Shown: in pieces, positions 11,313 to 53,823 of the stretch
Layout: every line of letters starts with the position of its first letter
Numbering within the stretch: the first letter of the stretch is position 1
IMG/VR virus record: IMGVR_UViG_3300009553_000022
Coordinates: 1-64,000 of that record
Source: a virus
Length of the DNA: 64,000 nucleotides
Reading direction: 5' to 3' (one strand)
Program-made: the position numbers and the translations under genes
Notes under the pieces: generated by a model
Told to the model about the DNA's origin: nothing
Seen by the model: the letters and a program-made list of their open reading frames with translations, nothing else
The model's database searches: none

Positions 11313-11340
11313 ACAATACGACACTGTCTGACGTTGTCAA
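11313..11340 (-). promoter_or_regulatory. Sigma-70-type promoter of the transglutaminase-like gene
   Basis: On the minus strand, TTGACA (11340-11335), a 16-bp spacer and TATTGT (11318-11313). The predicted +1 is about 11306, at the ATG (11307), so the mRNA would be leaderless. The -35 box overlaps a tandem operator-like pair, TGTCTGACG then TTGTCAAAC (11325-11342). Confidence 0.6.
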
Positions 11341-11362
11341 ACGTGGCTTTTCGTGGTAAGTT
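11334..11362 (+). promoter_or_regulatory. Possible divergent sigma-70-type promoter
   Basis: Plus strand TTGTCA (11334-11339), 17-bp spacer, TAAGTT (11357-11362). The predicted +1 is about 11369, at the ATG of the lipoprotein gene (11368). The boxes match less well than the minus-strand promoter they overlap. It shares the same TGTCWRAC pair. Confidence 0.4.
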
Positions 11363-18563: not shown

Positions 18564-19223
18564 TTAGACGTACGAGATCCCGAGTTGGCGACCAAGGTCG
18601 GTAAGCATGTCGGTCGGTGGAACGGCAGGCGGAGAAAAAGCGGCCCCCGGTTGGGAAGCGGTCGTTTCGCGAGCCGCAGGGGCGGCTGGCGCTGATGGCG
18701 CTGGGGGCCTGAAGATGACAAGCATGGACGGGAATGGGGCGGAGTCCTTGCATCCGCCAAATTTGAGACGGGACCGGATAAATCGGACCTCGGCGTATGG
18801 AAGTATGTAGTCGTGGAAAACCGCTTTGTCGGTGCGTGATGGGAGCAGCATGACAACAGTCGCGCCCTTCTGGGCCTCGGCCCACGCCTTCACGACAAAA
18901 TCATCCTGCCCGGCCTTGTACTTCGTGTTGCAGTGGCCGCGTTGTTTACAACGCTTCTTTTTGCAGTTCGGACTGCACACCGCTTCAGCCTCACTGTACG
19001 GCGGGTTTACCCATACCGTGTTTGGCGCCCACTCCTGCCTGAGTGCGTCATCCTGCTCGGTGAAATACTTCGCGACTTTTGCGTTTTCCGCACTCGCCGC
19101 CGCATCGAGCGTAAATCGAAACTCGGCGTCGAGGGGGAGAAACGTTGTGAGCGGGGTTTCCCAGCTATCGGATCCGCCCGTGTCGGCGGAGGAAAACATC
19201 ACTTTTTTGTCGTGGTCGTTCAT
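18564..19223 (-). CDS. Phage DNA N6-adenine methyltransferase (Dam type)
   Basis: 219 aa. It shows the phage Dam layout: DSWETPLTTFLPLDAEF, FTLDAAAS, then WVNPPYSEAE with the NPPY catalytic motif. A Cys-rich insert (CSPNCKKKRCKQRGHC) may bind zinc. The tail is Pro/Ala-rich. It probably methylates adenine in phage DNA against host restriction or to mark replication state. The ATG overlaps the stop of a six-codon leader reading frame directly behind the sigma-54 site, so translation is probably coupled. Confidence 0.85.
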   Translation of the reverse strand: MNDHDKKVMFSSADTGGSDSWETPLTTFLPLDAEFRFTLDAAASAENAKVAKYFTEQDDALRQEWAPNTVWVNPPYSEAEAVCSPNCKKKRCKQRGHCNTKYKAGQDDFVVKAWAEAQKGATVVMLLPSRTDKAVFHDYILPYAEVRFIRSRLKFGGCKDSAPFPSMLVIFRPPAPSAPAAPAARETTASQPGAAFSPPAVPPTDMLTDLGRQLGISYV

Positions 19224-19253: not shown

Positions 19254-19269
19254 AGCAAACGATGTGCCA
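19254..19269 (-). promoter_or_regulatory. Sigma-54-type promoter b
   Basis: Minus strand TGGCACATCGTTTGCT, a near-perfect match to the -24/-12 consensus, including TTGC. It is followed by CTTGTCTGACACTGTGAAAC. It sits 3 bases after the stop of the primase-helicase and faces the methylase, DUF4406 and polymerase genes. Predicted +1 is about 19243. Confidence 0.8.
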
Positions 19270-19272
19270 CGT

Positions 19273-21403
19273 TTATCGCTTCAGCAGAATCGACTTGGTG
19301 ATCTTGAAATCCCGCTCCGCGGTGCCCTCGACGTGCTCGATCCCCGAGTTTTCCATGCGGGCCAGGGTCCGGAGCTGGGTCGAGAAGCGACGCATCTGCC
19401 ACTGCTGCACGAGGGGCCGCACCGGCTCACAGCCAATCATCGCGCTGTATAGTGCTGTGGGGGTGCCGGTCCAGACGTCGGTGTTGTCAAAAACTACCGA
19501 CTGGCTGGCGAACAACGCGATCAGCTCGTACAGGTCGCGCGCTCCGCTCTGTTGCTTGCTGAGTTCGAGCAGTGACGGGTCAAAATAGCTTTCAACACCC
19601 GTTCGGCCCCCGATCCAGATCTCCGCGGGCGGGTTGTATTGCAGCAGCCAGCGGGCGAACATCGCCAGCTCCCGCGCGATCGCCGCCTCGGGGTTCTCCG
19701 GCCACTTGCCAGGGAACGCCTGGGCGAGGAAGAACATGAACTTGTCGCGAGTGTTCTCGTTCACTTCCGGCAACACTGCCGCAGAAGCCGCGTCGCAGTT
19801 GAGGGTGCCGAAAACACGGCCGCACCACACGAGCGACGCCTTCTTCGGAACTTCGGATGCCGGCTCTGCTCCGGGTTGACGACAAGCCCCTTCAACCGCT
19901 GGGCTGCAGACGACGCCTCGCGGTCGTTGGACGGAGCGTCCTCGTCGTTCATTGCCAGCAGGGCGCACTCGAAAAGCTCGTCATTGAATGCATCCCGCGC
20001 TGTCAAATGGCCCCAAGGGTTCGCCGACCGATACCCAGCCAGGGGCTTAACGACGTGCAGGCACCACAGCGTTTTGCCGGAGTTGACGGGGCCGGCCAGA
20101 AACAGCGCCTGACCCATTGTCGGCTTGTGGTTCAAAACCGACTCGTAGAAACGCTTGTGCCAGGCCATCGCGTGATGAAACCCAGCGCCGTACAGGCTGT
20201 GGGCTAGGCTCCAGATGAAGGGAAAGTCGCGTTCCGGCACGACAAGCTCGACTTGCGCCGGTTGGACAGGGATTAGATTACAGGTGTTTAGCATCCGCCT
20301 CCCGTCGATCTCGATCATGCCTGGACGTCGACAGACGAACGGCGCGGCGTGCTCGACGCGGTTAAATGTGTTGATGTGGTGCAGGACCCGGTGAGCCTCG
20401 GAGACTGTTTGTCCTTTGACTTTCTGCGTCGACAGCCCGCCACAGGCGAGGTGCAGCAGCGTGCTCTCGCGGTCGTAGTCGCGCCAAACGCCGCCGATGT
20501 TGATGAAGTAAGTTCGCCCGTCCCAGGCGGAATCTGCCGCGAGGTTCCCGAGGCTCCTGACCCGGTTCTCGTCGCACCACTTCGCGCCGAAAAGGGCCTC
20601 CCAGGACATGAACGGGACATTGCCAGTAAAGCACAGCATGCCGTCGGGCTTAATCTGGCAGCCGTTCGGGTTGTCTGCCGTCTCGTCCCAGAAACGCGGG
20701 CCAAGGTTGTTCACCTCGAACGGACCTTGCCAGCGACCGGGCCACTTCTCCGCAACCTTCGCCGCGATGACTTCGAGGGGCAGGTTGTCCGTGCTGCCGG
20801 TGTGCTTCTTTGCGACGCTGGCCACAACGCCAAACAACGTCTTCCAGGCGATCGGGGCATTGCCCAAGGCGCGCCACTCGCCCCGTTCGTCCAGACTTGT
20901 TCCGGCTTGCACGAAGCCTCGTCAAATCCGGCAAACGCTGTCGCCAGCTTAAACTTGTCGACGAACGCTTTAATGACTGCCGCGGCGTGCGCGGAGTTCA
21001 TTACCAGGATCGGGCGCTCGAACAGCCACACGGGCCGGAGCTTGTTGCTGAGCGTGGTTTCCAGAAATGTCGGGCGGAAATCTTCGGGGATCTGCGCGAT
21101 TAACGCGTCAACGTCTGTCTGCACGACGTCGTAATCCAGGGCCAGCCCGTTCATTGAATGGGCCTCGTTGCCGCTGCCTACGCGGAGAGTCGGAATGGCC
21201 CCACGCACCGCGGAATAAATTTGCCACTGAAAATCAGGCTTCGCGGTGAGTTCGCGGCGGTCCCGTTTCGGCATCGCCTTGAGTTCGGCAAGCCGCCCCT
21301 CGCCCGGGTCATACTTCCAGGGCTCGGCGAGTTCGCCGGTCTTGGCGCGGAGGTTCGGGAAACAGACAAAAAGGGGCGGCATGTAAAAGGGGAAAGAGGG
21401 CAT
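19273..21403 (-). CDS. Primase-helicase, split by two apparent -1 frameshifts
   Basis: Three overlapping frames join into one protein of about 700 aa. The first (21403 to about 20895) has PrimPol-like motifs: LALDYDVVQTD and FDEASCKPEQVW. The second (to about 19880) carries the helicase Walker A (AGPVNSGKT) and Walker B-like LLAMNDEDAP. The third (to 19273) carries VWCGRVFGTLNCD and the remainder of a D5/SF3-type ATPase. Both switches are -1, near GGGG (about 20893) and CCC (about 19876, minus-strand sense). A single missing base at each would restore one frame. Either two sequence errors or real frameshifting; the fused product would be the replicative primase-helicase. Confidence 0.75.
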
Positions 21404-21435: not shown

Positions 21436-22344
21436 TTACTCGGAAGCTTCACCGTCCTCGCGGACAGTGCTGCCGCGGAGCGCAGCGGCGTAGTGTCGGA
21501 TCTCGGGGCCGGACTCCTCGCGGAGCACGTTGACCTCGGGCACCCAGACGGAGAACTTGCCGCCGGTCGTCCGAACGACTTTCATCGTCCAAACGAATTT
21601 TTCCAACATGGCGGCCTTGCCTGGGACGACAGCCTGCATCTTCGTCTTGCTGTAGATCGGCGTGAAAAAGCGGGAGTATGCGCCACCCGAGCAGTAATAC
21701 ACTGCCGGCGCGTACCGCTTGCCGTCGGCCTCGATCACAAAGCCGGGGTGCTTGCAGTTGGCGGGTTCTTCCAGGAGCAGGAGAAACTTCGCCGTTTTCT
21801 GCCAGCGGAGTTTGACACCGTCCGGGGAGTAACCGACACCGCCGCCGCACGCCTGGGCTTCTTGCAGCGTGTCGACGATGCGCGACGTCATGCCCTCTTC
21901 CATTTCCTCCTTCGTGAGGTTCTCGCGGTACTGCGTTTTGACCTTCACCGGAATGAACCGAAGAACCGGGTTATTGGCCGGATTCTGCAGGTCGGGGATC
22001 CCGAAGAGGACCTCGTCCGCGTAGAGCGTGACGCCCTGGTTGAACTTCTTCGCGAGTTCCCCGGAGCCGTTGACGAGCTGGAATCGAGGCACGCGCAAGT
22101 CGCTTGCGTCGACTTCGCCCTCGATGCCTTCGATACCGGAGCCGGCGACGTCGCGGCGAACAGTAACGGCTGTCGAAGCCGTCTGCGTTTCGCCTGCCGG
22201 GACGACTTCGGCCGTGAAAGTCGGACCGACGCCCAGCTCATGAGCCAAGCGATCCGCGGCGTTTTCGTCAACGGGTAGGTGCGAGGTGTCGGCGGGGGGA
22301 GTAGCCGCTTGTGCGGCCGGTTTTCTGAGTGTTGCTGTAACCAT
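21436..22344 (-). CDS. Putative ssDNA-binding / recombination-associated protein
   Basis: 302 aa. An Ala/Thr-rich disordered N-terminus (~70 aa) is followed by a beta-rich domain with RVPRFQLVNGSGELAKKF and VLFGIPDLQNPANNP. The C-terminus is acidic (..REDGEASE), as in single-strand DNA-binding proteins. It lies between a DUF2800 nuclease and the primase-helicase, where related phages encode ssDNA-binding proteins. No family motif is decisive, so the call rests on context and the acidic tail. Confidence 0.5.
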   Translation of the reverse strand: MVTATLRKPAAQAATPPADTSHLPVDENAADRLAHELGVGPTFTAEVVPAGETQTASTAVTVRRDVAGSGIEGIEGEVDASDLRVPRFQLVNGSGELAKKFNQGVTLYADEVLFGIPDLQNPANNPVLRFIPVKVKTQYRENLTKEEMEEGMTSRIVDTLQEAQACGGGVGYSPDGVKLRWQKTAKFLLLLEEPANCKHPGFVIEADGKRYAPAVYYCSGGAYSRFFTPIYSKTKMQAVVPGKAAMLEKFVWTMKVVRTTGGKFSVWVPEVNVLREESGPEIRHYAAALRGSTVREDGEASE

Positions 22345-22600: not shown

Positions 22601-23746
22601 GGTGCCAGACTGTAGCAGACCCTGTGCCACGTTGTTTGACATGGCGACGTAGCTGTCCGCGAAAACTGCTTCCAACTTGGTTAGCGCGATGTCGCAGCAG
22701 CCCAAAACTTGATCGGGGGTTAAGACGTCTTTCAGCGCCTCAGCGACAAGCGCCGGCTCGTGAACTGACCGATCCCGCTTCCTGGCGCACGCCTTGATGA
22801 CAACCTCCTGGCCAGGGGCGACCTCCACGCGAAGCACGCCGTTAGGTTCCGCCTGGGCTAACTCTAACGCTCTCGCCTTTATCCCACTCTTGCTCTCTTC
22901 CAGGAGAGTTTCGAGGCGGTCGAGGATGTAACACGCCTTGGCGACGTCTTCCGGCGTGTGAATTTCTATCGCGCTGAACGTCGACGGCATCGGCAGCGGC
23001 TCAGCCTTCTGAACTGCGACCGCTGCGGTCTGAACGAGTGCGGGACAACTCCCGGCCCGCGAACAAAAATCGCAATACGGATTGACGTTGAGCGTCGGGT
23101 TTGGTTGCTGCGCGCTGCGAATGACCCCTTGAACGGCTGTAAATATATCATATAACTCCTCCCGGCGAAAGCTGGCCGCGGTCGTTTTGTGCAGTTTCGG
23201 CTGCACGAACAGCACACCCAGCTTGCCGAGCTTCGGGAATTTGTGGAACGATCCGAGCGCGTACGCCTTGCCCTGGTAGTTGACTGCGGCAGGTGGTACG
23301 GGTATCCAACCGAACTTATGATCAATCAAGACGCCCGTCGTTCCATCCTTTAAAATGATCAAAACGTCGAGGTGCCCGGCTGTCAGCTCTTGTCCCGTCG
23401 GGTCCGGAACTGTCACCCTGATTTCGTTGTGGATCTCCTCCCAACCTGCCGCGATCCAACGGTCCATTTCCTTGCATGAGAATGCGAGGAGCGTGTAGTC
23501 CTCGTCACTGATCGCGAACTCCCCCGACTGACTTAATTCGTCCAACGCTGTCAGTGTACGCGTGTGCCGCCCCTCCTTCACACGATCGACCAAAACGTCG
23601 GCGAGTTCATGCAAACGGGTACCTTCTCGGGACGCCTCGGACTCGCCGTCGTTAGGCAAGTAGCCGGGACAAGCTGCATAGGCGTTGAGTTTCGACGGCC
23701 CGTAGCGGTGATGCGTTCGGGCGGCGTGGTTAGGTTGTTCGTTCAT
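22373..23746 (-). CDS. DUF2800-type PD-(D/E)XK nuclease with Fe-S cysteines
   Basis: 457 aa. An N-terminal Cys (CPGYLPN, C26) and a C-terminal CxxCxxxxxC (C225, C228, C234) form the Cas4/AddB-like cluster. The nuclease core is GHLDVLI (D127) and LIDHKFG (D142, K144), preceded by RLHELAD. It likely resects DNA ends in replication or recombination together with the ssDNA-binding-like protein downstream. Residues after ~382 form a Lys-rich helical extension that reads through sigma-54 promoter c. It begins 17 bases inside the preceding gene. Confidence 0.8.
   Translation of the reverse strand: MNEQPNHAARTHHRYGPSKLNAYAACPGYLPNDGESEASREGTRLHELADVLVDRVKEGRHTRTLTALDELSQSGEFAISDEDYTLLAFSCKEMDRWIAAGWEEIHNEIRVTVPDPTGQELTAGHLDVLIILKDGTTGVLIDHKFGWIPVPPAAVNYQGKAYALGSFHKFPKLGKLGVLFVQPKLHKTTAASFRREELYDIFTAVQGVIRSAQQPNPTLNVNPYCDFCSRAGSCPALVQTAAVAVQKAEPLPMPSTFSAIEIHTPEDVAKACYILDRLETLLEESKSGIKARALELAQAEPNGVLRVEVAPGQEVVIKACARKRDRSVHEPALVAEALKDVLTPDQVLGCCDIALTKLEAVFADSYVAMSNNVAQGLLQSGTVKANQTSDPKLKKRILAEAKEQAREAKSTKKQAKEIMAMTLSAENLLTRADGLIQYATIRLEKSAPAISEKVSGS
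22614..22629 (-). promoter_or_regulatory. Sigma-54-type promoter c (inside a coding region)
   Basis: Minus strand TGGCACAGGGTCTGCT, followed by ACAGTCTGGCACCGTGAAAG. It has the same spacing and +4 GTG as the other members, but lies inside the DUF2800 frame. It would drive the nested frame, the ssDNA-binding-like gene and the primase-helicase. Predicted +1 is about 22603. Confidence 0.7.
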
Positions 23747-26489: not shown

Positions 26490-26505
26490 AGCAGACGCCG
26501 TGCCA
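26490..26505 (-). promoter_or_regulatory. Sigma-54-type promoter d
   Basis: Minus strand TGGCACGGCGTCTGCT, identical over 16 bases to promoter f on the other strand. It is followed by CATGTCTGACGCTGTGAGAC. Predicted +1 is about 26479, with GTG at +4. TGTCAGAC and CTGACAGTG motifs lie 120-150 bases upstream and could be activator or repressor sites. Confidence 0.85.
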
Positions 26506-27001: not shown

Positions 27002-28143
27002 GCAGCCGATGGGAAACAACCAAAGTGCCGGGCATCCGCCGCGACAAAGCGACTGGGATGCTTTACCTGAACAAGAGCGTCAACGGTCGAGTCTACGGCG
27101 AGAGCCTGAAGACGACGGACCTCGCGGTCGCGAAGCAGAAGTTTTTCGCACGCCTCGCGGAGCTGGCAAGCGAGCCCCGCCCGATAGCCCCGAAGCCCGA
27201 GCGGTATTCCCTGGGTGAGATCCTCGACACTTACGCCGCCCGGCTCGACGCGGAGCACGGCTCCCTCGACCCGAAAACCATCAAGCGGAAGAAGTGGACG
27301 CTGTCGACGATCGTCTCGACCTGGGGCGAAGTGCCGGTCCTCAAGACCCGCGGCGTCGGTAGCTTCCGCAGTCTCCCCGCGAAGCGCGTCAGCTATGACG
27401 ACCTCCTGGCGTGGCGGAAGCATTTCATCGACCCGAAGGGCGGCAACTTCAAGCCGTCGTATTTCAACCTCGTCCGCGATGTCCTCGAAGAGGTGTTTGA
27501 CCTGGCTGTCGAGTTCGGGCAGATCCGCGAGAATCCCGTTTGTCGTCTCAGCGTCGCAGCGGTGCCCCGCGCGCATTACGTCCTGCCGACTGGTGAACAG
27601 TGGGCGGCGATGCTGGCCAAGATCGACACGGCGACCGAGGTCGGTCAGAACTGCCGCGACTTGCTCGAAGGGCTGTCGTTGACGGGACTGCGGATCAGCG
27701 AGGCGTATGCTCTGCGCGTCGAGATGGTTGACCTGGAAGCCCGCGAGGTTCGCTTGCCGGCCGCGATTGTCAAAGGCCGTAACGGGCGAAGGAACGGACG
27801 GACGATCGATCTTATTCCCGAAGCTCACGCACTCATGACGCGGCTTGTCGCGACCGCTGGCCCGGACGGGCTGATCTTCAAAGCCGAGGGACGACGCACA
27901 TTGACGCGCATCTGCAAGGAAGCTGGCTGGACAGCGAAATTTACTCTCCACTCGTGCCGACATTTCTTCGCGACGCGGATGCTTGAATCGGGCGTGCCGG
28001 TACAGACCGTTGCGGAATGGATGGGACATCAGGACGGCGGCACGCTGCTACTGAAGACCTACACGCATCTTTGCCGGCGGCATGGGAAGGCGGCTGCGGC
28101 GAAGGTTACGATTTTCCCGGGCGAGAAGAAGGACGCAGTCTAA
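26998..28143 (+). CDS. Tyrosine-family integrase
   Basis: 381 aa from ATG 26998. The N-terminal arm/core-binding part (to ~residue 180) includes NKSVNGRVYGESL. The catalytic domain carries TGLRISEA (Arg), VKGRNGRRNG (Lys region), LHSCRHFFATRM (His-x-x-Arg), MGHQDG (His) and TYTHL (Tyr nucleophile). All expected catalytic residues are present. It should insert and excise the phage at an attachment site, so the phage is temperate. The attP is expected nearby but not identified. Confidence 0.92.
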   Translation: MSSRWETTKVPGIRRDKATGMLYLNKSVNGRVYGESLKTTDLAVAKQKFFARLAELASEPRPIAPKPERYSLGEILDTYAARLDAEHGSLDPKTIKRKKWTLSTIVSTWGEVPVLKTRGVGSFRSLPAKRVSYDDLLAWRKHFIDPKGGNFKPSYFNLVRDVLEEVFDLAVEFGQIRENPVCRLSVAAVPRAHYVLPTGEQWAAMLAKIDTATEVGQNCRDLLEGLSLTGLRISEAYALRVEMVDLEAREVRLPAAIVKGRNGRRNGRTIDLIPEAHALMTRLVATAGPDGLIFKAEGRRTLTRICKEAGWTAKFTLHSCRHFFATRMLESGVPVQTVAEWMGHQDGGTLLLKTYTHLCRRHGKAAAAKVTIFPGEKKDAV

Positions 28144-28561: not shown

Positions 28562-28898
28562 ATTTCTGAACGTCCTTCTTCCGCACTAAATACGGCCGGA
28601 ATGGCTTCAACGAAGCGGTGCAGACTAGGCACTCCTCCCGTCGGCCTGTGGCTGAACCCTGTTCGTATTCTGGCGGCCCATCAAGAGAGCGGTGCTCCCG
28701 GCCCCTTCGGAATTTGTAATTGTCGACGATCGCCATTCTCAAGCCGATCACGTACCCGGTGCCGGACTCGCACAGCGGCGTCGGCGAAGCCTGCCGGACA
28801 CACCCCTGGCCGTGAACGTAGTCACTCAAAAAGCGTTCGGAGCAAGTCATGCCGTAGGCCGGCCCGTGTTCGATTTTCTGGCCAATGAAATAGTTCAA
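28539..28898 (-). CDS. Unknown protein downstream of the sigma-54 activator
   Basis: 119 aa (MNYFIGQKIEHGPAYG...). Cys-containing motifs (MTCSERFLSDYVHGQGC and EECLVC) could bind a metal. It starts in an ATGA overlap with the activator gene, so it is co-translated with it. No family recognised. Confidence 0.6.
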   Translation of the reverse strand: MNYFIGQKIEHGPAYGMTCSERFLSDYVHGQGCVRQASPTPLCESGTGYVIGLRMAIVDNYKFRRGREHRSLDGPPEYEQGSATGRREECLVCTASLKPFRPYLVRKKDVQKYADITAS

Positions 28899-29782
28899 GC
28901 TACCTCCTTCAACGTAATCCCAAGAGCTGCCAGCTTCGCACGGCCCCCATCCCGGTTGACGCCCAGGGCCTCACTAAACTGCGTGACGTTCCCAGCCTCA
29001 GCCCAGACAGCCCGCAAGGCGGCCTCGTCGAGGCATGCGTCCGGTATGGTTCCCAGGAGCAGCAACCGCGACAGCCAGCCGAACAGCTCCCGACAGTTCC
29101 CTGTCCAGGGCCGCGTCTGCAGGTCGAGCAATATCTCCGGCGAGAGCACGGGAACCGGAAGCTTATGCCTCTTCGCTTCGGCTGCGAGGAACTGGGCCGC
29201 GAGGGCTCCCAGGTCTTCCGGCCGTTCCCGCAATGGTGGAATCTCCAGGGTGAAGGCGGCGAGGCGATGATAGAGGTCGGCGCGGAGCTTGCCGGACTTG
29301 ATTGTGGCGGCTGGGTCGACATTCATCGCCGCGACGATCCGCACGTCGACAAATTCGTCTCGGTCGCTGCCCAGGGAGCGCACCCGACTATCCTGGAGGG
29401 TCCGCAAGAGCTTCGACTGCGCCTGAGCCGGCATCTCCGACAGCTCGTCGAGGAACAGCGTCCCGCCAGATGCCGCGCGGAACAGGCCCAGCCGCGACGT
29501 TACAGAGCCCGTATACGCGCCCCGCTGCGCGCCGAACAGCTCGCTTTCAATTAAATCGGCAGGAAGCGCCGCACAGTTCAGCGAAACCTTCGGCCCCGCG
29601 GCGCGGGGGCTATTGCCGTGGATCAGGTTCGCGAAGACCTCCTTGCCCGTCCCCGTCTCACCCAGGACGAGAACAGGGACATCAAATTTAGCGAGATGCA
29701 CAGCCTTACGGGCAAGTGCCTGAATGGCCGGACTAGCAAAGATAGGGACCAAGCGAGTTTCATAAAGGTGCCGTCCTGGCAA
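28895..29782 (-). CDS. Minimal sigma-54 activator (bEBP, PspF-like)
   Basis: 295 aa: an AAA+ domain and a DNA-binding domain with no N-terminal receiver, GAF or PAS domain. Walker A is GETGTGKE (41-48). The sigma-54 contact loop is GAYTGS (88-93) where GAFTGA is canonical; the essential Thr is kept. Walker B is GGTLFLDE (106-113), the arginine-finger region LRADLYHRL (166-174), and sensor II NCREL (229-233). The C-terminus is a Fis-type helix-turn-helix (NVTQFSEALGVNRD, 265-278). Such proteins hydrolyse ATP to open promoters bound by RpoN polymerase. The TTG start at 29782 is uncertain. The gene is second in an operon with a sigma-70-type promoter, while at least eight sigma-54-type sites lie elsewhere in the window. 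Confidence 0.92.
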   Translation of the reverse strand: MPGRHLYETRLVPIFASPAIQALARKAVHLAKFDVPVLVLGETGTGKEVFANLIHGNSPRAAGPKVSLNCAALPADLIESELFGAQRGAYTGSVTSRLGLFRAASGGTLFLDELSEMPAQAQSKLLRTLQDSRVRSLGSDRDEFVDVRIVAAMNVDPAATIKSGKLRADLYHRLAAFTLEIPPLRERPEDLGALAAQFLAAEAKRHKLPVPVLSPEILLDLQTRPWTGNCRELFGWLSRLLLLGTIPDACLDEAALRAVWAEAGNVTQFSEALGVNRDGGRAKLAALGITLKEVA

Positions 29783-29791
29783 GGTTGATGG

Positions 29792-29956
29792 TTAAAGGAC
29801 GACCTGCTCGCGGACCCGAACGCCGTGGCGCCGCAGGCTCTCCGACAGTTGGCTGGCGAAGGCATCGGCGTCCTGCCGGGTGTAAAACGTGCCACACTCC
29901 CCCCAACCGTCCCACCGGCCAGGGCCTATTTTAGTCTCAACAACGTATTGCTTCAT
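29792..29956 (-). CDS. Small protein leading the activator operon
   Basis: 54 aa from ATG 29956 (MKQYVVETKIGPGRWDGWGE...). A TFYTRQDADAFASQL segment suggests a small alpha/beta fold. It is the first gene after the minus-strand promoter, 9 bases before the activator TTG. Longer in-frame starts would read through the promoter region. Role unknown. Confidence 0.6.
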   Translation of the reverse strand: MKQYVVETKIGPGRWDGWGECGTFYTRQDADAFASQLSESLRRHGVRVREQVVL

Positions 29957-29963
29957 GCATGAC

Positions 29964-29991
29964 ACGGTAGCACCATGCACTACGTTGTCAA
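29964..29991 (-). promoter_or_regulatory. Sigma-70-type promoter of the activator operon
   Basis: Minus strand TTGACA (29991-29986), 16-bp spacer, TACCGT (29969-29964). The -10 is weak. Predicted +1 is within a few bases of ATG 29956. The -35 box overlaps the operator-like CGTTGTCAAACG (29983-29994). This would let the activator be made before any sigma-54 transcription. Confidence 0.5.
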
Positions 29992-30014
29992 ACGCACGAA
30001 CACAAAACAATACA

Positions 30015-30043
30015 TTGACAACTCCCGTGGGCAGCCGATAAAC
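30015..30043 (+). promoter_or_regulatory. Sigma-70-type promoter of the ribbon-helix-helix gene
   Basis: TTGACA (30015-30020), then GATAAA at 16 bp or ATAAAC at 17 bp. The predicted +1 is about 30049 and the ATG is at 30051, so the message is leaderless or nearly so. The promoter is divergent from the activator operon, with the operator-like site in between. Confidence 0.55.
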
Positions 30044-30050
30044 CTGTGGT

Positions 30051-30353
30051 ATGAAAAGCAGCGTACGACAAAAGCCTGACCAAAAAATAGATCGGACGAG
30101 ACCCGAGCAGTTCGCGGTGCGAATCACGGACAACCTGCGGTCGCGTGTCGAGGCCGTCGCCGCAGCCTTATCCAACGAAGCGCAAACGACTACCATATCC
30201 GACGTTGCCCGACGCTGTCTAGTCGGGCATTTGCCGGTGCTGGAGCGTGAACTCGGGCTTGTTGAAAACCGGCCGCAGTCGGCGGAAACGGATACAACGC
30301 AGTGGGTCGCGGAAGCGAAAAAGCGCGCAACTAAAGCCAATGCCAAAGTCTAA
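30051..30353 (+). CDS. Ribbon-helix-helix DNA-binding protein, candidate repressor
   Basis: 100 aa. A basic N-terminal arm (~20 aa) leads to a strand EQFAVRITDN and two helices (NLRSRVEAVAAALSNEAQ and TTISDVARRCLVGHLP) in the Arc/CopG/MetJ arrangement. Such dimers bind short, often tandem, sequences with about one-turn spacing. It is transcribed away from the activator operon, and the shared intergenic region holds TGTCAAAC-type sites also found at most phage promoters. This makes it the best candidate for the regulator that reads those sites; that link is inference. Confidence 0.7.
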   Translation: MKSSVRQKPDQKIDRTRPEQFAVRITDNLRSRVEAVAAALSNEAQTTTISDVARRCLVGHLPVLERELGLVENRPQSAETDTTQWVAEAKKRATKANAKV

Positions 30354-30373
30354 CGGGTGGGACAAAAGTAGAA

Positions 30374-30401
30374 TTGCAGAGGCACCGCGGGACGGTATGG
30401 A
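30374..30401 (+). promoter_or_regulatory. Weak sigma-70-type promoter of the PAS gene
   Basis: TTGCAG (30374-30379), 16-bp spacer, TATGGA (30396-30401). The predicted +1 is about 30408, two bases before ATG 30410, the same leaderless geometry seen at other operons. It has no obvious TGTCWRAC site. Confidence 0.4.
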
Positions 30402-30409
30402 TACGGTGC

Positions 30410-30775
30410 ATGCAGATAATCGGCAACCAGTTTGAACTTTTTTGGGTGAGCGACTCGGACGGATCCGGCTGGACCCTTAGCCGGGCGCTACAAACGCACC
30501 TCGGGCTGTCGCATGTCAGCTCGTACGAGGATGTGCTGGCCGCGGTGCATCCCAGGGACCAGCGGCGCGTCCGGCAGCAACTCGAATCGGCCCGCAGCGC
30601 ACGGGACGGCATTACGCTGAAGTTCAAGGTTTGGCTGCCAAGCAACCAGGTTTTTGCCCAGGCGAGGCTAGTCGGCTGGCCGCGGTTCATAAACGGGAAT
30701 ACCTTCCTGGGCCACATCGGTTTTTGGCGTATCAAACTCCCATCGGCCCCGCCCGATATCGGAGATCTCAACTAA
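30410..30775 (+). CDS. Stand-alone PAS-domain protein
   Basis: 121 aa from ATG 30410. The pattern FELFWVSDSDGSGWTLS, HLGLSHVSSYEDVLAAVHPRD and GHIGFWRI follows the PAS fold-3 order, including the HPxD motif that precedes the long helix. There is no kinase or output domain and no signal peptide. A solo PAS protein is unusual in a phage. Here it lies near a sigma-54 activator that lacks the PAS or receiver domain usual in the cellular family, so it might sense a host signal for it. The partnership is inferred from position only. Confidence 0.7.
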   Translation: MQIIGNQFELFWVSDSDGSGWTLSRALQTHLGLSHVSSYEDVLAAVHPRDQRRVRQQLESARSARDGITLKFKVWLPSNQVFAQARLVGWPRFINGNTFLGHIGFWRIKLPSAPPDIGDLN

Positions 30776-30820
30776 ATTGCCTTGCGCTGCACAGCTTTGT
30801 ATCATCTTGTCAAACACAGT

Positions 30821-30872: not shown

Positions 30873-31688
30873 ATGCAAACACTGAACGTCAAGAGCCGAA
30901 CAATTCTCAGCAATGAAGACCTCAATCGCATCGCTCCCAGCATCTTCGCGGAGCACGCGGCTTCCCACCTCACCGAACGTTACGCGTTCTTCCCCACGTC
31001 CCGCGTCGTCGACGCTATGCGCGGCGCAGGATGGAACCCCGTAGCCGCCCAAGAGATGCGCGCCCGTAAGGAAGAACGCCGCGGCTTCCAGACCCACGTC
31101 GTCCGCTTCCAGAAGGCCATTCACACGCTCGCGGTGGGCGACAGCGTCTTCGAGCTGATCCTGAAAAACGCGCATGATGGCGGCTGCTCCTGGCAGATGC
31201 ACGCCGGTCTCTACCGCGCGACCTGTGCCAACGGCATGGTCGTCTCCGAAGGCGTCTCGCAGCAGGCCAACATCCGGCACAGCGGGCGGGAAATCGACGA
31301 GATCATCAGCAACAGCTTCAGCATCGCTGAACGCCTGCCCCTCATGGCCGAGCACGTTGGCAAATTCAGCAGCCGACTCCTCACCGACACCGAAGCTCGC
31401 ACCTTCGCGGCGGGTGCCCTGGCCCTTCGCTACGAGGCCAACGAGGCGCCGATCAAGGCCGAGGCCCTCTTGACCGCCCGCCGGGCTGGCGACGTCGGAA
31501 ACGACCTCTGGCGCACGTTCAACCGCGTTCAGGAAAACCTGATGCGCGGCAAGCAACGCGGGTACAAGATTACGGCCGCCAGCCGGGGCTTTCTGCGCAA
31601 GGTCAGCACCCGCCCGGTCACCGCGATCAACGAAGATCTGCGTATCAATAAGGAACTTTGGAGCCTCGCCGAGAGCTTCTCGGCATAA
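30873..31688 (+). CDS. DUF932 phage/plasmid protein
   Basis: 271 aa. The motif order matches the DUF932 family found on phages and plasmids: RYAFFPTSRVVDAMRGAGW, VRFQKAIHTLAVGDSVFEL, HAGLYRATCANGMVV. It is related in name only to antirestriction-type loci; the biochemical function is unknown. It is a single-gene transcription unit, with its own promoter and a strong terminator directly after it, so it is probably made early and in quantity. Confidence 0.85.
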   Translation: MQTLNVKSRTILSNEDLNRIAPSIFAEHAASHLTERYAFFPTSRVVDAMRGAGWNPVAAQEMRARKEERRGFQTHVVRFQKAIHTLAVGDSVFELILKNAHDGGCSWQMHAGLYRATCANGMVVSEGVSQQANIRHSGREIDEIISNSFSIAERLPLMAEHVGKFSSRLLTDTEARTFAAGALALRYEANEAPIKAEALLTARRAGDVGNDLWRTFNRVQENLMRGKQRGYKITAASRGFLRKVSTRPVTAINEDLRINKELWSLAESFSA

Positions 31689-31758: not shown

Positions 31759-31790
31759 AAGGCCCTGCACCCACAGGGCCTTTTCTTTTT
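31759..31790 (+). terminator. Rho-independent terminator after DUF932
   Basis: A perfect 9-bp stem AAGGCCCTG/CAGGGCCTT with a 6-base loop (CACCCA) is followed by TTCTTTTT. It is the clearest intrinsic terminator in the window. It insulates DUF932 from the next promoter, which starts about 20 bases later. Confidence 0.9.
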
Positions 31791-31812
31791 GTCAAATTGT
31801 GTCTGACAGAGT

Positions 31813-31841
31813 TTGACAAAGTAACCTAAGCGGATTAGGAT
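31813..31841 (+). promoter_or_regulatory. Sigma-70-type promoter of the PAPS-reductase/methylase operon
   Basis: TTGACA (31813-31818), 17 bp, TAGGAT (31836-31841). The predicted +1 is 31848, the A of the ATG: a leaderless message. Three operator-like units lie in a row: TTTGTCAAA (31788-31796), TGTCTGACA (31800-31808) and TTTGACAAA (31812-31820). Confidence 0.75.
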
Positions 31842-31847
31842 ACCGGC

Positions 31848-32648
31848 ATGGGAACGACAACCGAAAAACTCCTCCGCTGGGCCGACTACATCGTGATCAA
31901 CACCTCGGCGGGCAAAGACTCGCAGGCGATGATGGACTACGTTTGCCGCCTCGCATTTTCAGCCGGCATGCTGCACAAGGTCGTCGCCGTCCACGCCGAC
32001 CTGGGCCGCGTCGAATGGAAGGGCACCCGCGAGCTGGCCGAGGAGCACGCCAAGTACTACGGCATTCCGTTCCACGTCGTCCGTCGCGAGAAGGGCGACC
32101 TCCTGGAGCAGGTCGAGGCGCGCGGCATGTGGCCGGACAGCGGCAACCGCTACTGCACCAGCGACCAGAAGCGCGACCAAGTGGCCAAGTTCCACACGCA
32201 GCTTTCCCTCAAACCGGTTGTCCCCGGGCGCCGCGTCCGCATCCTTAACTGCATGGGCTTCCGCAAAGACGAGAGCCCGGCCCGCGCGAAACGCCGCCCT
32301 GTCCAGGCGGACAGCCGCACGACAAACGGCAAGAAGGCCGTGCTGAACTGGCTCCCGATCCACACCTGGAGCGTCGATCTCGTCTGGAGCACGATCCGCG
32401 CCTCCGGCGTCCCCCATCATTACGCCTACGACAAGGGCATGCCCAGGCTGTCCTGCTGCTTCTGCATCTTCGCCCCTAAGGACGCCTTGGTCATCGCAGG
32501 CCGGGAGAACCCGGAGCTTCTCGCGGAGTACGTGCGGGTCGAGGCGAAGATCGGCCACAGCTTCCGAAACAAATTCAAGATCGCGGAGGTCCAGGAGGCG
32601 ATCGCCGCAGGCTACCAACCCAAGAACGTTCAAAACTGGACAATGTAA
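31848..32648 (+). CDS. PAPS-reductase / PP-loop family protein
   Basis: 266 aa. The PP-loop is NTSAGKDSQAMM near residue 20, followed by VAVHADLGRVEWKGT and RYCTSDQKRDQ, the usual PAPS-reductase-family order. A late CCFCIF motif adds paired cysteines. Members activate or reduce sulfur-containing adenylates, and related DndC proteins serve DNA phosphorothioation. No other Dnd gene is seen. It is coupled by TAATG to a C5 methylase, so a joint role in DNA modification or restriction evasion is plausible but unproven. Confidence 0.85.
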   Translation: MGTTTEKLLRWADYIVINTSAGKDSQAMMDYVCRLAFSAGMLHKVVAVHADLGRVEWKGTRELAEEHAKYYGIPFHVVRREKGDLLEQVEARGMWPDSGNRYCTSDQKRDQVAKFHTQLSLKPVVPGRRVRILNCMGFRKDESPARAKRRPVQADSRTTNGKKAVLNWLPIHTWSVDLVWSTIRASGVPHHYAYDKGMPRLSCCFCIFAPKDALVIAGRENPELLAEYVRVEAKIGHSFRNKFKIAEVQEAIAAGYQPKNVQNWTM

Positions 32649-33538
32649 TGAAAGCTGTTGATTTATTCGCGGGCGCTGGCGGGTTCTCCACTGGCGCGAA
32701 GATGGCCGGCGTCGATGTCGTATGGGCGGCGAACCACTGGCGCGCAGCCGTCGACTGTCATGCGGCGAATCACCCCAGCGTCGCGCACATGTGCCAGGAC
32801 CTGCATCAAGCCGACTGGAATCAGGTCCCAGCGCACGACGTCCTGCTGGCGTCTCCGTCCTGCCAGGGGCATGCCAAGGCCCGCGGGAAGGAGCGGCCCC
32901 ACCACGACGCCGCGCGGTCTACCGCCTGGGCCGTCGTCTCCTGCGCCGAGGTTCACCGCCCGGAATTTGTCGTTGTCGAGAATGTCCCCGAGTTTCGGCG
33001 CTGGCTCCTTTACCCGGCGTGGACGCAGGCGATGAACGCCCTGGGCTACTCCACCGCGGAGCACGTTATCAACGCCGCCGACCACGGCGTCCCTCAATCC
33101 CGCGTGCGCCTGTTCGTCGTATGCTCGCGGAGCAAGGCGCCCCTGCAGCTGAAGTTCCAGCCGAAGGCCCACGTCCCGGCTAGCTCGTTCATCACAGCCC
33201 CAGGGACGACTCCCGTCAGCTCGCTGTGCGCCCGTTCCCAGGCCCGCATAGCAAACGGCCGCGCGGAGCACGGCAGCCGGTTTCTCATGGCTTATTTTGG
33301 CACGGAGAAGGGCGGGCGGAGCCTTAACGCACCCCTCGGCACCGTCACCACGCGCGACCGGTACGCCCTGGTCGACGGCGACAACTGCCGGATCCTGACC
33401 GTTGACGAGTACCGGCAGGCAATGGGGTTCCCCGACTACCAGCTGCCGGCCAACAAGAAGCTCGCGAAGCACCTGCTCGGCAACGCGGTTTGTCCGCCTG
33501 TGGCCCGCGATATCCTCCTGCAACTGGCTAAGAACTAG
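32648..33538 (+). CDS. DNA (cytosine-5) methyltransferase
   Basis: 296 aa. C5-methylase motifs in order: DLFAGAGGFSTG (I), SPSCQGH with catalytic Cys (IV; Ser replaces the usual first Pro), VVENV (VI), QSRVRLF (VIII), APLGTVTTRDR (target region) and GNAVCPP (X). All catalytic elements are kept, so activity is expected. It is cotranscribed with the PAPS-reductase-like gene from an early promoter, fitting protection of phage DNA from host restriction. It ends in TAG, so TAG is a normal stop in this genome. Confidence 0.92.
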   Translation: MKAVDLFAGAGGFSTGAKMAGVDVVWAANHWRAAVDCHAANHPSVAHMCQDLHQADWNQVPAHDVLLASPSCQGHAKARGKERPHHDAARSTAWAVVSCAEVHRPEFVVVENVPEFRRWLLYPAWTQAMNALGYSTAEHVINAADHGVPQSRVRLFVVCSRSKAPLQLKFQPKAHVPASSFITAPGTTPVSSLCARSQARIANGRAEHGSRFLMAYFGTEKGGRSLNAPLGTVTTRDRYALVDGDNCRILTVDEYRQAMGFPDYQLPANKKLAKHLLGNAVCPPVARDILLQLAKN

Positions 33539-33577
33539 GCCTTTGTGAGACACGGTAAAATAATGTCAGACAACGTT

Positions 33578-33606
33578 TGACAACGTAACCGAACCGGCTT
33601 AGGATA
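33578..33606 (+). promoter_or_regulatory. Sigma-70-type promoter of the long early operon
   Basis: TTGACA (33578-33583), 17 bp, TAGGAT (33601-33606), nearly the same as the promoter at 31813. The predicted +1 is about 33613 and the ATG is at 33615. TGTCAGACA (33565-33573) and GTTTGACAA (33576-33584) form the operator-like pair. Confidence 0.75.
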
Positions 33607-37221: not shown

Positions 37222-37836
37222 ATGGCCCAACGTGAATATTCGTACGCGGCTGCCTTCATCGCTTTCGCGAAGGGGGACAAGCTCGAAGACATCAGCGAGA
37301 CCCTCGGCATCCCGCTGCAAACCCTCCGCAACAAGTCCCGCGATGAGTGCTGGCGCAAGCTGGCCACGCAGCTGCAACAGAGCATCGTCCCCCTGTCTTC
37401 CCCGAAGTCCGCGGAGCGCGATATCGAGCGCATCAAGAAGAACCGCGAGGACAACATCCGCCTGGCTGAGAAGCTCCGGGTCGACGCGGAGCGCGTGATT
37501 GACGCCCTGCTGGATAACACGCTGACCATTGAGCACGTCAACAGCAAGGGGCTCATCACAAACAGGCGCCCGAACATCCAGGACCGCACAGCTCTTGCCG
37601 GCTACGTCAAGACGATCGCAGAGACGCTATACAGAGCGCATGGCGACGTTCTCCTGGCCCGCGAGACGGACGCCCTGCCCCAGCAGGCTGCCCAGGTCGT
37701 AATCAACCTACCCGCCGCGATAGCCCGGCCCCGCGCGGAGCGCGAGCTGGTCGACGACGCGAAGCCGATCATCGAGCTGAGACCTCCACAACAGGCCGAG
37801 GCCGTAACAGTCACCCGAACACCCGAACAGCAATGA
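37222..37836 (+). CDS. HTH protein, terminase-small-subunit-like
   Basis: 204 aa. An N-terminal helix-turn-helix (FAKGDKLEDISETLGIPLQT) is followed by long helices and a Pro/Gln tail. The layout resembles phage small-terminase DNA-binding proteins, but the large terminase is 12 kb away and in another transcription unit, so this may be an early regulator instead. ATGA overlap with the next gene. Confidence 0.55.
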   Translation: MAQREYSYAAAFIAFAKGDKLEDISETLGIPLQTLRNKSRDECWRKLATQLQQSIVPLSSPKSAERDIERIKKNREDNIRLAEKLRVDAERVIDALLDNTLTIEHVNSKGLITNRRPNIQDRTALAGYVKTIAETLYRAHGDVLLARETDALPQQAAQVVINLPAAIARPRAERELVDDAKPIIELRPPQQAEAVTVTRTPEQQ

Positions 37837-40225: not shown

Positions 40226-40993
40226 TCAGTGGGCGGCTTCCGCCCACGGCGCATCGTCGGGGTCGGGATGGTATCCGATGGTTAGGATCTGCGTTGCGAT
40301 CTCCGTGCCGGATTCTCTGAACGCGCCAGCTGGGACGTCTTCACGCTCCCACTCGTAGCCGTCCAGAACGTCGTCCCACTCGTCCAGATGCCCAGGCGCG
40401 ACGATGGCGACAAGGCGGCCCCCATCAGCGAGCCACTTGAGCGCGTGCGTGACGTGCTTGATGTCAGAGCCCCGCGTAAAGGGCGGGTTCATCACGATGC
40501 GGCTGTACTTGATGGCGGGCGGGGGCAGAGTGAGGAAGTCGGCGATCTCCACCGTGCGCTCTTCGCCCTCCAGGTGTTTCTCGTTCTCGGGGTTCAGCTC
40601 GATGCAATAGACCCATGACGCACCAGCTCCCAGGCAGGCACGCGCGAGCGCGCCCTGTCCAGCCGAAGGCTCAAGGACGACATGCTCATCGAGAGAGGCA
40701 AGCGCGGCCACTCGCTCGGCCAGATGCGGCGGCGTATAGAATGCCTGGAACTTCTTGCGCTCGTCGATGGAGACGCCGCTGCCGAGCATCGCGGACAGCT
40801 TCGCTGTCGGACACGACTCAAATAGATGGCCCTTGCCGCGCTTCCACCTTCCACCAGCAGCGCGCAGAGCCTTGTCGACGGCCTCATACAGTGGGCGCGG
40901 CAACTGTGCGTCGGGGAGGCATACAGCGTTGCCGACGACTGTTGCACCGCGGAGCACGTCCGCAACTTCGGGGGAGATTTTAACGTCGGCCAT
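40226..40993 (-). CDS. Class I methyltransferase, N6-adenine type
   Basis: 255 aa. FYTPPHLAERVAALA, then LEPSAGQGALARACL (SAM-binding motif I), and MNPPFTRGSDIKHV with the catalytic NPPF. This is the arrangement of N6-adenine methylases of the TaqI-like class. An N-terminal ~85 residues may recognise DNA. It is the third DNA methylase of the window and adds to an apparent restriction-evasion set. Confidence 0.8.
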   Translation of the reverse strand: MADVKISPEVADVLRGATVVGNAVCLPDAQLPRPLYEAVDKALRAAGGRWKRGKGHLFESCPTAKLSAMLGSGVSIDERKKFQAFYTPPHLAERVAALASLDEHVVLEPSAGQGALARACLGAGASWVYCIELNPENEKHLEGEERTVEIADFLTLPPPAIKYSRIVMNPPFTRGSDIKHVTHALKWLADGGRLVAIVAPGHLDEWDDVLDGYEWEREDVPAGAFRESGTEIATQILTIGYHPDPDDAPWAEAAH

Positions 40994-41369: not shown

Positions 41370-41385
41370 AGCAGCCGGTGTGCCA
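41370..41385 (-). promoter_or_regulatory. Sigma-54-type promoter e
   Basis: Minus strand TGGCACACCGGCTGCT preceded by T, followed by CATGTCTGGGACTGTGACTG. Predicted +1 is about 41359 and GTG at +4 starts the MazG-like gene. Just upstream is TGTCTGACAG-CGTCAAACGT, an operator-like pair abutting the -24 box. Confidence 0.8.
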
Positions 41386-42136: not shown

Positions 42137-42165
42137 TTGCACGGTGTCAAACGGCGTGTTACAGT
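42137..42165 (+). promoter_or_regulatory. Sigma-70-type promoter at the right of the noncoding region
   Basis: TTGCAC (42137-42142), 17 bp, TACAGT (42160-42165). Predicted +1 is about 42172, six bases before ATG 42178. The spacer holds TGTCAAACG and the start region TGTCTGAAG, operator-like units. Confidence 0.5.
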
Positions 42166-42177
42166 GTCTGAAGTCTT

Positions 42178-43408: not shown

Positions 43409-43424
43409 TGGCACGGCGTCTGCT
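43409..43424 (+). promoter_or_regulatory. Sigma-54-type promoter f
   Basis: TGGCACGGCGTCTGCT, identical to promoter d. It is followed by CATGTCTGGAGGTGTGAGC and preceded by TGTCTGACACTG. Predicted +1 is about 43435, with GTG at +4 (43438). Confidence 0.85.
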
Positions 43425-45323: not shown

Positions 45324-45730
45324 AAGAGTACGTCGCCGGATTTTTGTTCTCCACCGACCGCAGCCGGGTCGTTCTGATCTGCAAAGAGAAACCCGCCTGG
45401 CAGGCCGGCAAGCTGAACGGAGTCGGCGGGAAGATCGAGCGCGACGAGCTGCCGCATCAGGCCATGCGCCGCGAGTTCTTCGAGGAAACCGGCGCGAAGA
45501 CTTGCGTCTCGGACTGGCACCACTTCTGCAGGTACCAGGGTGAGGATTGTGTCGTGCATTTCTTCCGTGCCTTTAAAGATCTCGAAGTCGAGTCAGTGAC
45601 GAGCGAGCTTGTGCGCTGGTACTACGTCCGTGAACTGAACACATACCCCACGCTGCCTAACCTCTCCTGGCTGGTGCCGTTTGCCCTCGACGAAACGCTG
45701 TCGCATTCTGAGGTCTACGAGGTGGCTTAA
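45320..45730 (+). CDS. Nudix hydrolase
   Basis: 136 aa from TTG 45320 (TTGA overlap). The Nudix box is complete: GGKIERDELPHQAMRREF followed by FEETG. It would hydrolyse a nucleoside diphosphate derivative, for example an oxidised dNTP or an RNA cap. The 5' part of a longer frame is Arg-rich shadow sequence. An exact-spacing TGGCAC-type match at 45515 inside it is treated as chance. Confidence 0.85.
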   Translation: MKEYVAGFLFSTDRSRVVLICKEKPAWQAGKLNGVGGKIERDELPHQAMRREFFEETGAKTCVSDWHHFCRYQGEDCVVHFFRAFKDLEVESVTSELVRWYYVRELNTYPTLPNLSWLVPFALDETLSHSEVYEVA

Positions 45731-47208: not shown

Positions 47209-47224
47209 TGGCACGGTAGCTGCT
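47209..47224 (+). promoter_or_regulatory. Sigma-54-type promoter g
   Basis: TGGCACGGTAGCTGCT, followed by CTTGTCTGACACTGTGAAAC. It is preceded by TGTCTGACAT-TGACTGAAAC, an operator-like tandem. Predicted +1 is about 47235, with GTG at +4. It heads the operon with the protease, FkbM methylase, terminase and probably the portal. Confidence 0.85.
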
Positions 47225-53792: not shown

Positions 53793-53807
53793 GGCGTTTG
53801 ACACGTT

Positions 53808-53823
53808 GGCACGGAGTCTGCTC
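53808..53823 (+). promoter_or_regulatory. Sigma-54-type promoter h
   Basis: TGGCACGGAGTCTGCT preceded by T, followed by CCTGTCTAACGCTGTGAAAC. It lies 15 bases after the portal stop. Predicted +1 is about 53834, with GTG at +4. It faces the scaffold, capsid and tail genes, and perhaps beyond the right edge. Confidence 0.85.

Follow-up and report, generated by a model that had tools for sequence, protein, structure and literature searches.

A phage-borne sigma-54 activator, its matched promoters and a family of operator-like boxes around a putative regulatory hub

The stretch analysed here (the window, 64,000 nucleotides) comprises positions 1 to 64,000 of virus record IMGVR_UViG_3300009553_000022, which is 66,629 bases long and carries phage genes for a terminase, portal, capsid, DNA polymerase, helicase, exonuclease and tyrosine integrase. 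In its middle, rightwards from the integrase, a minus-strand group of small open reading frames (ORFs), a sigma-54 activator (bacterial enhancer-binding protein, bEBP) and a 54-residue ORF is followed, after a divergent region, by a plus-strand series encoding a ribbon-helix-helix (RHH)-like protein, a solo PAS-fold protein, a DUF932 protein, a PAPS-reductase-like protein and a cytosine methylase-like protein (Table 1). A sequence-only reading of the divergent region had proposed an arrangement like a lysis-lysogeny switch, with the RHH protein set against the activator. The activator, the divergent RHH-like gene and the solo PAS-fold protein are real, the identity of the RHH-like gene being moderately supported, and the best explanation of the locus is a regulatory hub of an integrase-bearing phage.

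The activator and its sigma-54 promoters

The activator matches Pfam Sigma54_activat at E 4.7e-59 (199.3 bits against a cut-off of 20.2), and its matches in the PDB include NtrC-family proteins, NifA (the second-best match), FleQ and the AAA+ domain of PspF. It has no N-terminal, cis-acting regulatory domain; bEBPs of this kind (PspF, HrpRS) are controlled in trans, according to an excerpt of PMC7057263. Where the sigma-54 contact loop GAFTGA aligns, the phage protein reads GAYTGS. Tyrosine in the F position is found in few bEBPs (same excerpt), and an excerpt of PMC6615313 has GAYTGA among the loop variants that still permit activation, the final S of GAYTGS lying outside that list. Compared with a helix-turn-helix (HTH) profile of seven bEBP C-termini, taken from loci in genome contigs, the C-terminus of the activator ranked fourth of 985 ORFs with a weak match (E 1.1), and it gave no Pfam match at E<=0.1.

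Cognate promoters for such an activator are present in the window. The pattern TGGCAC-N6-TGCW occurs at eight exact sites, against a mean of 0.17 and a largest value of 3 in 300 first-order resamplings made in 2-kb blocks. Seven of the eight are near-identical (TGGCAC-N6-TGCT), have boxes of the family described below beside them and are oriented along the downstream genes, where gene order suggests operons. The eighth site (45515) is probably a chance occurrence and was set aside. That the phage bEBP drives a sigma-54 regulon is well supported and, in our judgement, likely.

Start codons stand unusually near these promoters. With p as the first base of TGGCAC and the expected transcription start taken at p+26, a GTG stands at exactly p+29, about 3 nt after the start, as the first codon of an ORF no shorter than 40 amino acids in 9 of 11 sigma-54 promoters (six of the seven window promoters and three of the four in G023, a close relative introduced below). 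An in-frame ATG or TTG is also found at p+17 in five of these nine cases. The GTG of the promoter at 22629 shares the frame of a longer gene that encloses it and does not count as an independent case. This proximity suggests leaderless or near-leaderless messages. At the sigma-70-like promoters, ATGs are located 5-9 nt past the -10 at 11307, 29956, 30051, 31848 and 33615 (two by eye).

Tandem boxes and the proteins of the hub

The boxes consist of a 7-bp unit (GTCTGAC, GTCAGAC, GTTTGAC or GTCAAAC) with 38 exact occurrences, against 15.8 in shuffles. Exact units are found exactly 10 bp apart in five pairs (0.00 in shuffles), and with one mismatch allowed there are 14 such pairs (1.40, with 4 as the largest value in 40 shuffles); a spacing of 20 bp is likewise more frequent than in shuffles (8 against 1.25). 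With up to three mismatches allowed, the 21-bp double box matches the complete record four times in the forward reading, two of these matches overlapping each other, and the backwards pattern has no match. The -35 of the minus-strand promoter in the divergent region sits within the 12-mer GTTTGACAACGT (29982-29993), which is exact at four window sites (11331 and 29982 on the minus strand, 30819 and 33575 on the plus strand) and matches 14 times at up to two mismatches, a number that none of 100 shuffles reached (mean 4.60).

These boxes overlap the -35 of the sigma-70-like promoters at 30807, 31789, 33543 and 11324. Near the sigma-54 promoters they are found around p-21, p-11 and p+19, and no upstream box was seen at the promoters at 26505 and 19269. 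A further set (42144-42172) has a poor box match between its two boxes. The boxes have the look of operators for a repressor, because they overlap sigma-70 -35s and closely surround sigma-54 promoters, and we slightly favour reading them as predicted operators of a repressor that binds in tandem. In the divergent region, two promoters had been claimed; both can be read by eye as TTGACA-N16, but their -10s are weak and neither is among the results of the consensus scan. The same scan lists no promoter within 30353-30410, and the weak promoter that the sequence-only reading had assigned to the PAS gene finds no counterpart there.

MetJ and Arc are RHH repressors that act on tandem repeats. Since RHH proteins are well matched to short pseudo-palindromes that recur every 10 bp, the RHH-like protein is the first candidate for binding the boxes; an excerpt of PMC5016525 describes the RHH-type ParR as contacting 10-bp repeats. 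No RHH family is among the Pfam, PHROG and NCBIfam matches of the candidate ORF at E<=1, and its structure model has no fold match at E<=0.001. A profile of our own, built from 39-residue segments of eight cellular RHH_1 matches in genomes reached through six of the seven bEBP loci in genome contigs, gave this ORF the top rank among 985 six-frame ORFs (E 0.011, with the runner-up at E 1), in an alignment that covers residues 21-39 only; 2 of 5000 shuffles equal the score. By this comparison the protein is RHH-like with moderate support, and its identity with the predicted tandem-box repressor is a proposal that we would put just short of an even chance.

For the PAS-fold ORF the sole Pfam match is PAS_3, below cut-off at E 0.0059. 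On a structure model of low confidence (predicted local distance difference test, pLDDT, 54), Foldseek found the FixL PAS domain at E 3.0e-4, and the best match in VIA had a Z of 9.2 and a root-mean-square deviation of 3.3 over 104 residues. All the Foldseek and VIA matches listed (50 each) belong to PAS or LOV domains or to chains that contain PAS; the titles of most say so, and a few (phytochromes, sensor kinases, flavin proteins) we take to contain PAS domains. A PAS fold is supported by this modelling. A LOV photoreceptor was considered and rejected, as the required flavin-binding cysteine is missing: the 121 residues from the ATG contain no Cys, and an alternative upstream TTG start adds 12 residues including one Cys, outside the PAS domain. 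The sequence-only reading had suggested that the PAS protein could gate the AAA+ domain of the bEBP in trans, which is a possible candidate role to which nothing specific points. Because its gene adjoins, and is probably co-transcribed with, the RHH-like gene, the PAS protein may act on the RHH-like protein instead. That it modulates one or the other of these two partners appears to us evenly balanced.

Table 1 Features of the hub, promoters, boxes and selected genes in the window.
Feature	Position	Strand	Remarks
Tyrosine integrase	27025-28143	+	adjoins hub; Pfam Phage_integrase E 3.1e-19
bEBP, PspF-like	28895-29782	-	295 aa from TTG start; AAA+ domain
54-aa ORF	29792-29956	-	from ORF list; ATG at 29956; ahead of bEBP
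Activator-operon sigma-70-like promoter, TTGACA-N16-TACCGT	29964-29991	-	-35 at 29991-29986; ATG 7 nt past -10
RHH-gene promoter, TTGACA-N16-GATAAA	30015-30042	+	-35 at 30015-30020; ATG 8 nt past -10
RHH-like protein	30051-30353	+	100 aa; candidate box-binding repressor
Solo PAS-fold protein	30410-30775	+	121 aa from ATG; without output domain
Perfect double box TTGTCAAACacaGTTTGACAA	30807-30827	+	on -35 of DUF932 promoter TTGACA-17-TATTCT
DUF932 gene	30873-31688	+	
Triple box	31789-31819	+	on -35 of PAPS-reductase-like gene promoter TTGACA-17-TAGGAT
Box array	33543-33583	+	in-register boxes 33545, 33565, 33575; on -35 of TTGACA-17-TAGGAT promoter
Double box	11324-11344	-	on TTGACA-N16-TATTGT promoter (by eye), 5 nt ahead of ATG 11307
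Boxes GTCAAAC (42146) and GTCTGAA (42166)	42144-42172	+	20 bp apart; upstream of ORF at 42178
Sigma-54 promoter TGGCACATCGTTTGCT	19254-19269	-	toward Dam-like methylase and DNA polymerase genes
Sigma-54 promoter	22614-22629	-	within 3' end of exonuclease gene; toward 21436-22344 and beyond
Sigma-54 promoter	26490-26505	-	toward helicase and exonuclease genes
Sigma-54 promoter	41370-41385	-	two upstream boxes 2 bp off common register
Sigma-54 promoter	43409-43424	+	two upstream boxes
Sigma-54 promoter	47209-47224	+	upstream of terminase and portal genes
Sigma-54 promoter	53807-53822	+	upstream of capsid and other structural genes
Eighth TGGCAC-N6-TGCW site	45515-45530	+	region read as coding; without boxes
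Methylase-like gene, Dam family	18567-19223	-	E 3e-28
Methylase-like candidate	32648-33538	+	
Methylase-like candidate	40229-40993	-	
Possible second DNA-binding regulator	37222-37833	+	PHROG 'DNA binding protein' E 7e-5

Among the neighbouring genes, the 54-aa ORF is the apparent first gene of the activator operon, and its best matches in Pfam, PHROG and NCBIfam were no better than E 0.099. The possible second regulator (37222-37833) also has a weak CII-like match (Phage_CP76, E 0.069). Two or three methylase-like genes are found in the window: one belongs to the Dam family, one has a weak methyltransferase match (E 0.0057), and the cytosine methylase-like ORF was named by eye alone. A 2424-aa ORF at 1606-8880 (+) is 62% identical to its G023 counterpart across the aligned part.

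Relatives with and without the sigma-54 layer

Searches with the terminase and the capsid protein found L035, a 16-kb fragment in which both proteins are identical, and G023 (35 kb), whose main block is 73.6% identical over 14.6 kb. G023 contains four TGGCAC-N6-TGC sites. Three of them match the places of the window promoters at 47209, 53807 and 43409, with 13 of 16 positions of the core identical in each and TGGCAC and TGCT always kept, and to the fourth (25923) nothing corresponds at the end of the window record. G023 also shows box pairs spaced by 10 bp (1 against 0.00 for exact units, and 5 against 0.88 with one mismatch, largest 3), and the stretch p+26 to p+35 matches at 10, 7 and 7 of 10 positions. 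The sigma-54 promoters are retained in place in G023 and the boxes are partly conserved. An ungapped comparison had suggested that core and boxes are conserved and the flanks are not; this view was dropped, as that comparison was misled by small insertions and a gapped one contradicts it. Because the gapped comparison shows weaker box conservation, our confidence in the regulon, in the boxes as operators and in the RHH-like protein as their repressor was lowered.

In pieces of two distant relatives (L048 and L047) the number of 10-bp box pairs was 0 and 0. The distant relative G025 (69.6 kb) has homologues of the polymerase (46%), helicase (37%), exonuclease (35%), terminase (54%) and capsid (51%), and in it neither a bEBP nor a sigma-54 site nor 10-bp box pairs were found. 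No integrase homologue was found in G025 at E<=1e-3, and the hub proteins gave fragment matches alone (11-40 residues, E 0.33-0.93). A 21-kb fragment, G024, likewise showed no bEBP and no sigma-54 site. The bEBP, the sigma-54 promoters and the boxes are absent together in another lineage, a correlation that comes from very few genomes of uncertain completeness.

Other searches returned little. Direct searches of viral contigs gave no relatives of the bEBP, RHH-like, PAS-fold or DNA polymerase proteins, and genome contigs gave none of the capsid. The exact sigma-54 promoter pattern had no match in viral contigs, a search in which near relatives may be left out. The 21 viral loci with a DUF932 neighbour contained no bEBP, RHH or PAS homologue at E<=0.01; 9 of these 21 records weakly match PF00158, and the five loci read, out of eight given, encode GPTGVGKT AAA+ proteins without a GAFTGA loop, which we do not count as bEBPs. 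In the phage collection the RHH-like and PAS-fold proteins had no match. The bEBP matched 66 records there, of which 40 were listed, and these matches were not used, as several look by name and length like bacterial contigs filed as phage; several records named Salmonella or Acinetobacter phages are, from the lengths of the records and the names of their annotated genes, suspected pieces of bacterial chromosomes. A possible family of phage bEBPs is PHROG 7998 ('unknown function'), to which the window bEBP has a match at E 2.8e-43. In the gut phage record MT121960 (L049), the gene at 20001-20588 codes for a stand-alone AAA+ protein whose GAFTGA loop is exact, and no TGGCAC-N6-TGC site was found within the 38.7 kb of this record.

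A regulatory model, its alternatives and its meaning

These features can be brought together in a model in which host sigma-70 polymerase would start a small early set of genes, which takes in DUF932 and PAPS reductase, the activator and RHH-PAS operons and a few more. The phage bEBP would then activate the sigma-54 polymerase of the host at the seven promoters dedicated to it, which stand in front of the replication and morphogenesis operons. The 7-bp pseudo-palindrome repeated every 10 bp would be bound by a repressor, for which the RHH-like protein is the most likely candidate. Seated on the early -35s and next to or across the sigma-54 promoters, this repressor would silence both classes and autoregulate the divergent operons, and the PAS protein would provide a signal input to the RHH-like protein or to the bEBP. 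Our best model as a whole, that the bEBP uses host RpoN to license the lytic programme and a tandem-box repressor, probably RHH-like, holds both promoter classes, has in our view somewhat less than an even chance of being right. The fuller statement is more tentative again: the entire lytic programme, replication and morphogenesis, may be handed to host sigma-54 by the phage's own bEBP and silenced by one RHH-type repressor with boxes in both promoter classes, with the PAS protein feeding in a cellular signal. As far as sequence can establish them, the bEBP, the sigma-54 promoters, the box family with its 10-bp periodicity and the retention of the promoters in a relative form the base of this model; the operons, the binding of the boxes by the RHH-like protein, repression, the role of the PAS protein and lysogeny are what we infer.

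A number of observations weigh against the model. The divergent region holds one exact box (GTCAAAC, 29987) and one poor box (CATTGAC, 30013, two mismatches), in which the -35 of the RHH promoter falls. They are 26 bp apart and form no tandem array, the hub sites being weaker than those at the DUF932 or PAPS gene; the shared operator-like sites that had been placed here are, to this extent, only weakly borne out. Among boxes with one mismatch the number is not elevated (315 against 297.4), the spacing alone is, and the sigma-54 pattern with one mismatch is unexceptional (10 against a mean of 4.36, with 2 of 100 shuffles reaching 10). The box-like element GTGAAAC (p+29) overlaps the GTG start codon in 9 of the 11 sigma-54 promoters and may therefore be the start region of near-leaderless messages and not a box, which weakens each such element as independent evidence. 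An upstream activating site was sought, and no shared dyad or 7- to 9-mer was found in -400 to -25 of the 11 promoters, judged against 100 background draws; bEBPs commonly bind about 100-150 bp upstream (excerpt of PMC7057263). The contact loop of the activator differs from GAFTGA at two positions. The RHH-like ORF is missed by Pfam RHH_1 (PF01402) and Arc (PF03869) in a search of its own record at E<=10, and its single-sequence model (pLDDT 65) has helices at 18-42, 49-68 and 82-99 and no strand. In G023 the core stands just modestly above its flanks, which are partly coding and match at 88, 99 and 72 of 129 positions upstream (56-77%) and at 73, 69 and 61 of 114 downstream. The box stretch p-21 to p-5 matches there at 15, 7 (9 deleted) and 11 of 17 positions and p+16 to p+25 at 6, 8 and 3 of 10, and the activator region is missing from this fragment, which ends short of the hub.

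In the main alternative the boxes are bound by the bEBP itself, which would cover the early sigma-70 -35s (its own included) and activate the sigma-54 promoters from proximal sites, leaving a minor part to the RHH-like protein. It would in this way switch from early to late expression, and NtrC at glnA is such a repress-and-activate switch. The boxes are the sole shared element found at the sigma-54 promoters, with no separate site farther upstream, they are jointly absent with the bEBP and the promoters from G025, and an HTH dyad would be about as long as TTGTCAAAC-NNN-GTTTGACAA. On the other side, the C-terminal HTH of the bEBP is weak, the boxes extend to p+19 to p+25, into the seat of the polymerase and away from the usual bEBP distance given above, and tandem short pseudo-palindromes at 10 bp fit RHH dimers better; this possibility seems to us unlikely, if well worth keeping in view. 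Rather less likely is a real sigma-54 programme to which the RHH-PAS pair is unrelated, the RHH-like protein being autoregulatory or accessory and the boxes serving another DNA-binding protein of phage or host. The single boxes of the hub and the moderate identity of the RHH-like protein fit such an arrangement, and the ORF at 37222-37833 offers another candidate regulator; the RHH gene nevertheless has box-bearing promoters on either side, and repeats in tandem at 10 bp fit the way in which RHH proteins bind. Finally, the arrangement could be ordinary and its resemblance to a regulon due to chance or composition. The TTGACA -35 is part of the box, so that a sigma-70 promoter can in part be expected to carry a single box anyway, and the one-mismatch count of the sigma-54 pattern speaks in the same direction. 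The excess of exact sigma-54 sites, the spacing peak at 10 bp and the three cores kept in G023 do not, and this reading, already disfavoured by the site and spacing counts, is very improbable.

The model of a bEBP-driven programme under a tandem-box repressor also bears on the proposed switch. The likeness to a lysis-lysogeny switch holds in that the integrase adjoins the divergent activator and RHH-like genes, and is weaker in the boxes of the divergent region. The opposition of RHH-like protein and activator gains indirect support from the recurrence of the box family at early sigma-70 and at seven sigma-54 promoters and from 10-bp repeats that suit RHH, for which this protein is a candidate binder; the poor hub boxes detract from it. 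The switch interpretation is plausible, and it acquires a concrete molecular basis in a family of operator-like boxes that recurs and a regulon of dedicated sigma-54 promoters.

Temperate-phage immunity regions combine an integrase, a repressor and divergent promoters. The hub is alike in its adjoining integrase, divergent regulators and related boxes on both -35s, and unlike in that no CI- or Cro-like gene is found among the window ORFs scanned, which are not all ORFs. Mu C, P2 Ogr and lambda Q are late activators of phages that redirect host polymerase. In this phage, too, a phage protein would switch on late operons with host polymerase, but the route would be host sigma-54 and an ATP-driven bEBP, with replication genes included. 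As a stand-alone AAA+ sigma-54 activator without N-terminal regulatory domain, the window bEBP resembles PspF and HrpR/HrpS, from which it differs in being phage-encoded, in its GAYTGS loop and weak HTH, in its seven matched promoters in the same phage and in the lack of a detected upstream site. The boxes, short pseudo-palindromes every 10 bp, recall the sites of ParR of pB171, MetJ and Arc; unlike those, they are found at both sigma-70 and sigma-54 promoters, and the candidate binder is assigned to the RHH proteins by a weak profile rank. NifL-NifA is likewise a separate PAS protein and bEBP encoded nearby, and the NifL PAS domain is among the Foldseek matches listed. NifL contacts NifA via its H and GHKL domains (excerpt of PMC9866876), which are not present in the 121-aa PAS-fold protein (PAS_3 alone in Pfam), and in the window the divergent region separates the PAS gene from the bEBP and leaves it with RHH. 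The precedent is only partial, given the domains by which NifL makes contact.

Phages usually take over transcription by sigma-70 promoters, a polymerase of their own, antiterminators or appropriation of a sigma factor, and sigma-54 is a rarely used partner of bacterial polymerase. Among the open-licence papers listed, no phage bEBP or phage sigma-54 programme was found, an absence that is not proof; PMC9879122 describes a prophage affecting a host bEBP. Since a related phage does without this entire layer, the layer may be one that is gained or lost as a unit, a suggestion based on a very small number of genomes. The seven matched sigma-54 promoters would be a natural set for studying competition between a repressor and sigma-54. 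Since sigma-54 promoters are silent without an ATP-driven activator, the lytic programme should leak little and would be under the control of one phage-borne protein. If the model is true, infection would be tied to host RpoN and lysis to a PAS-sensed signal.

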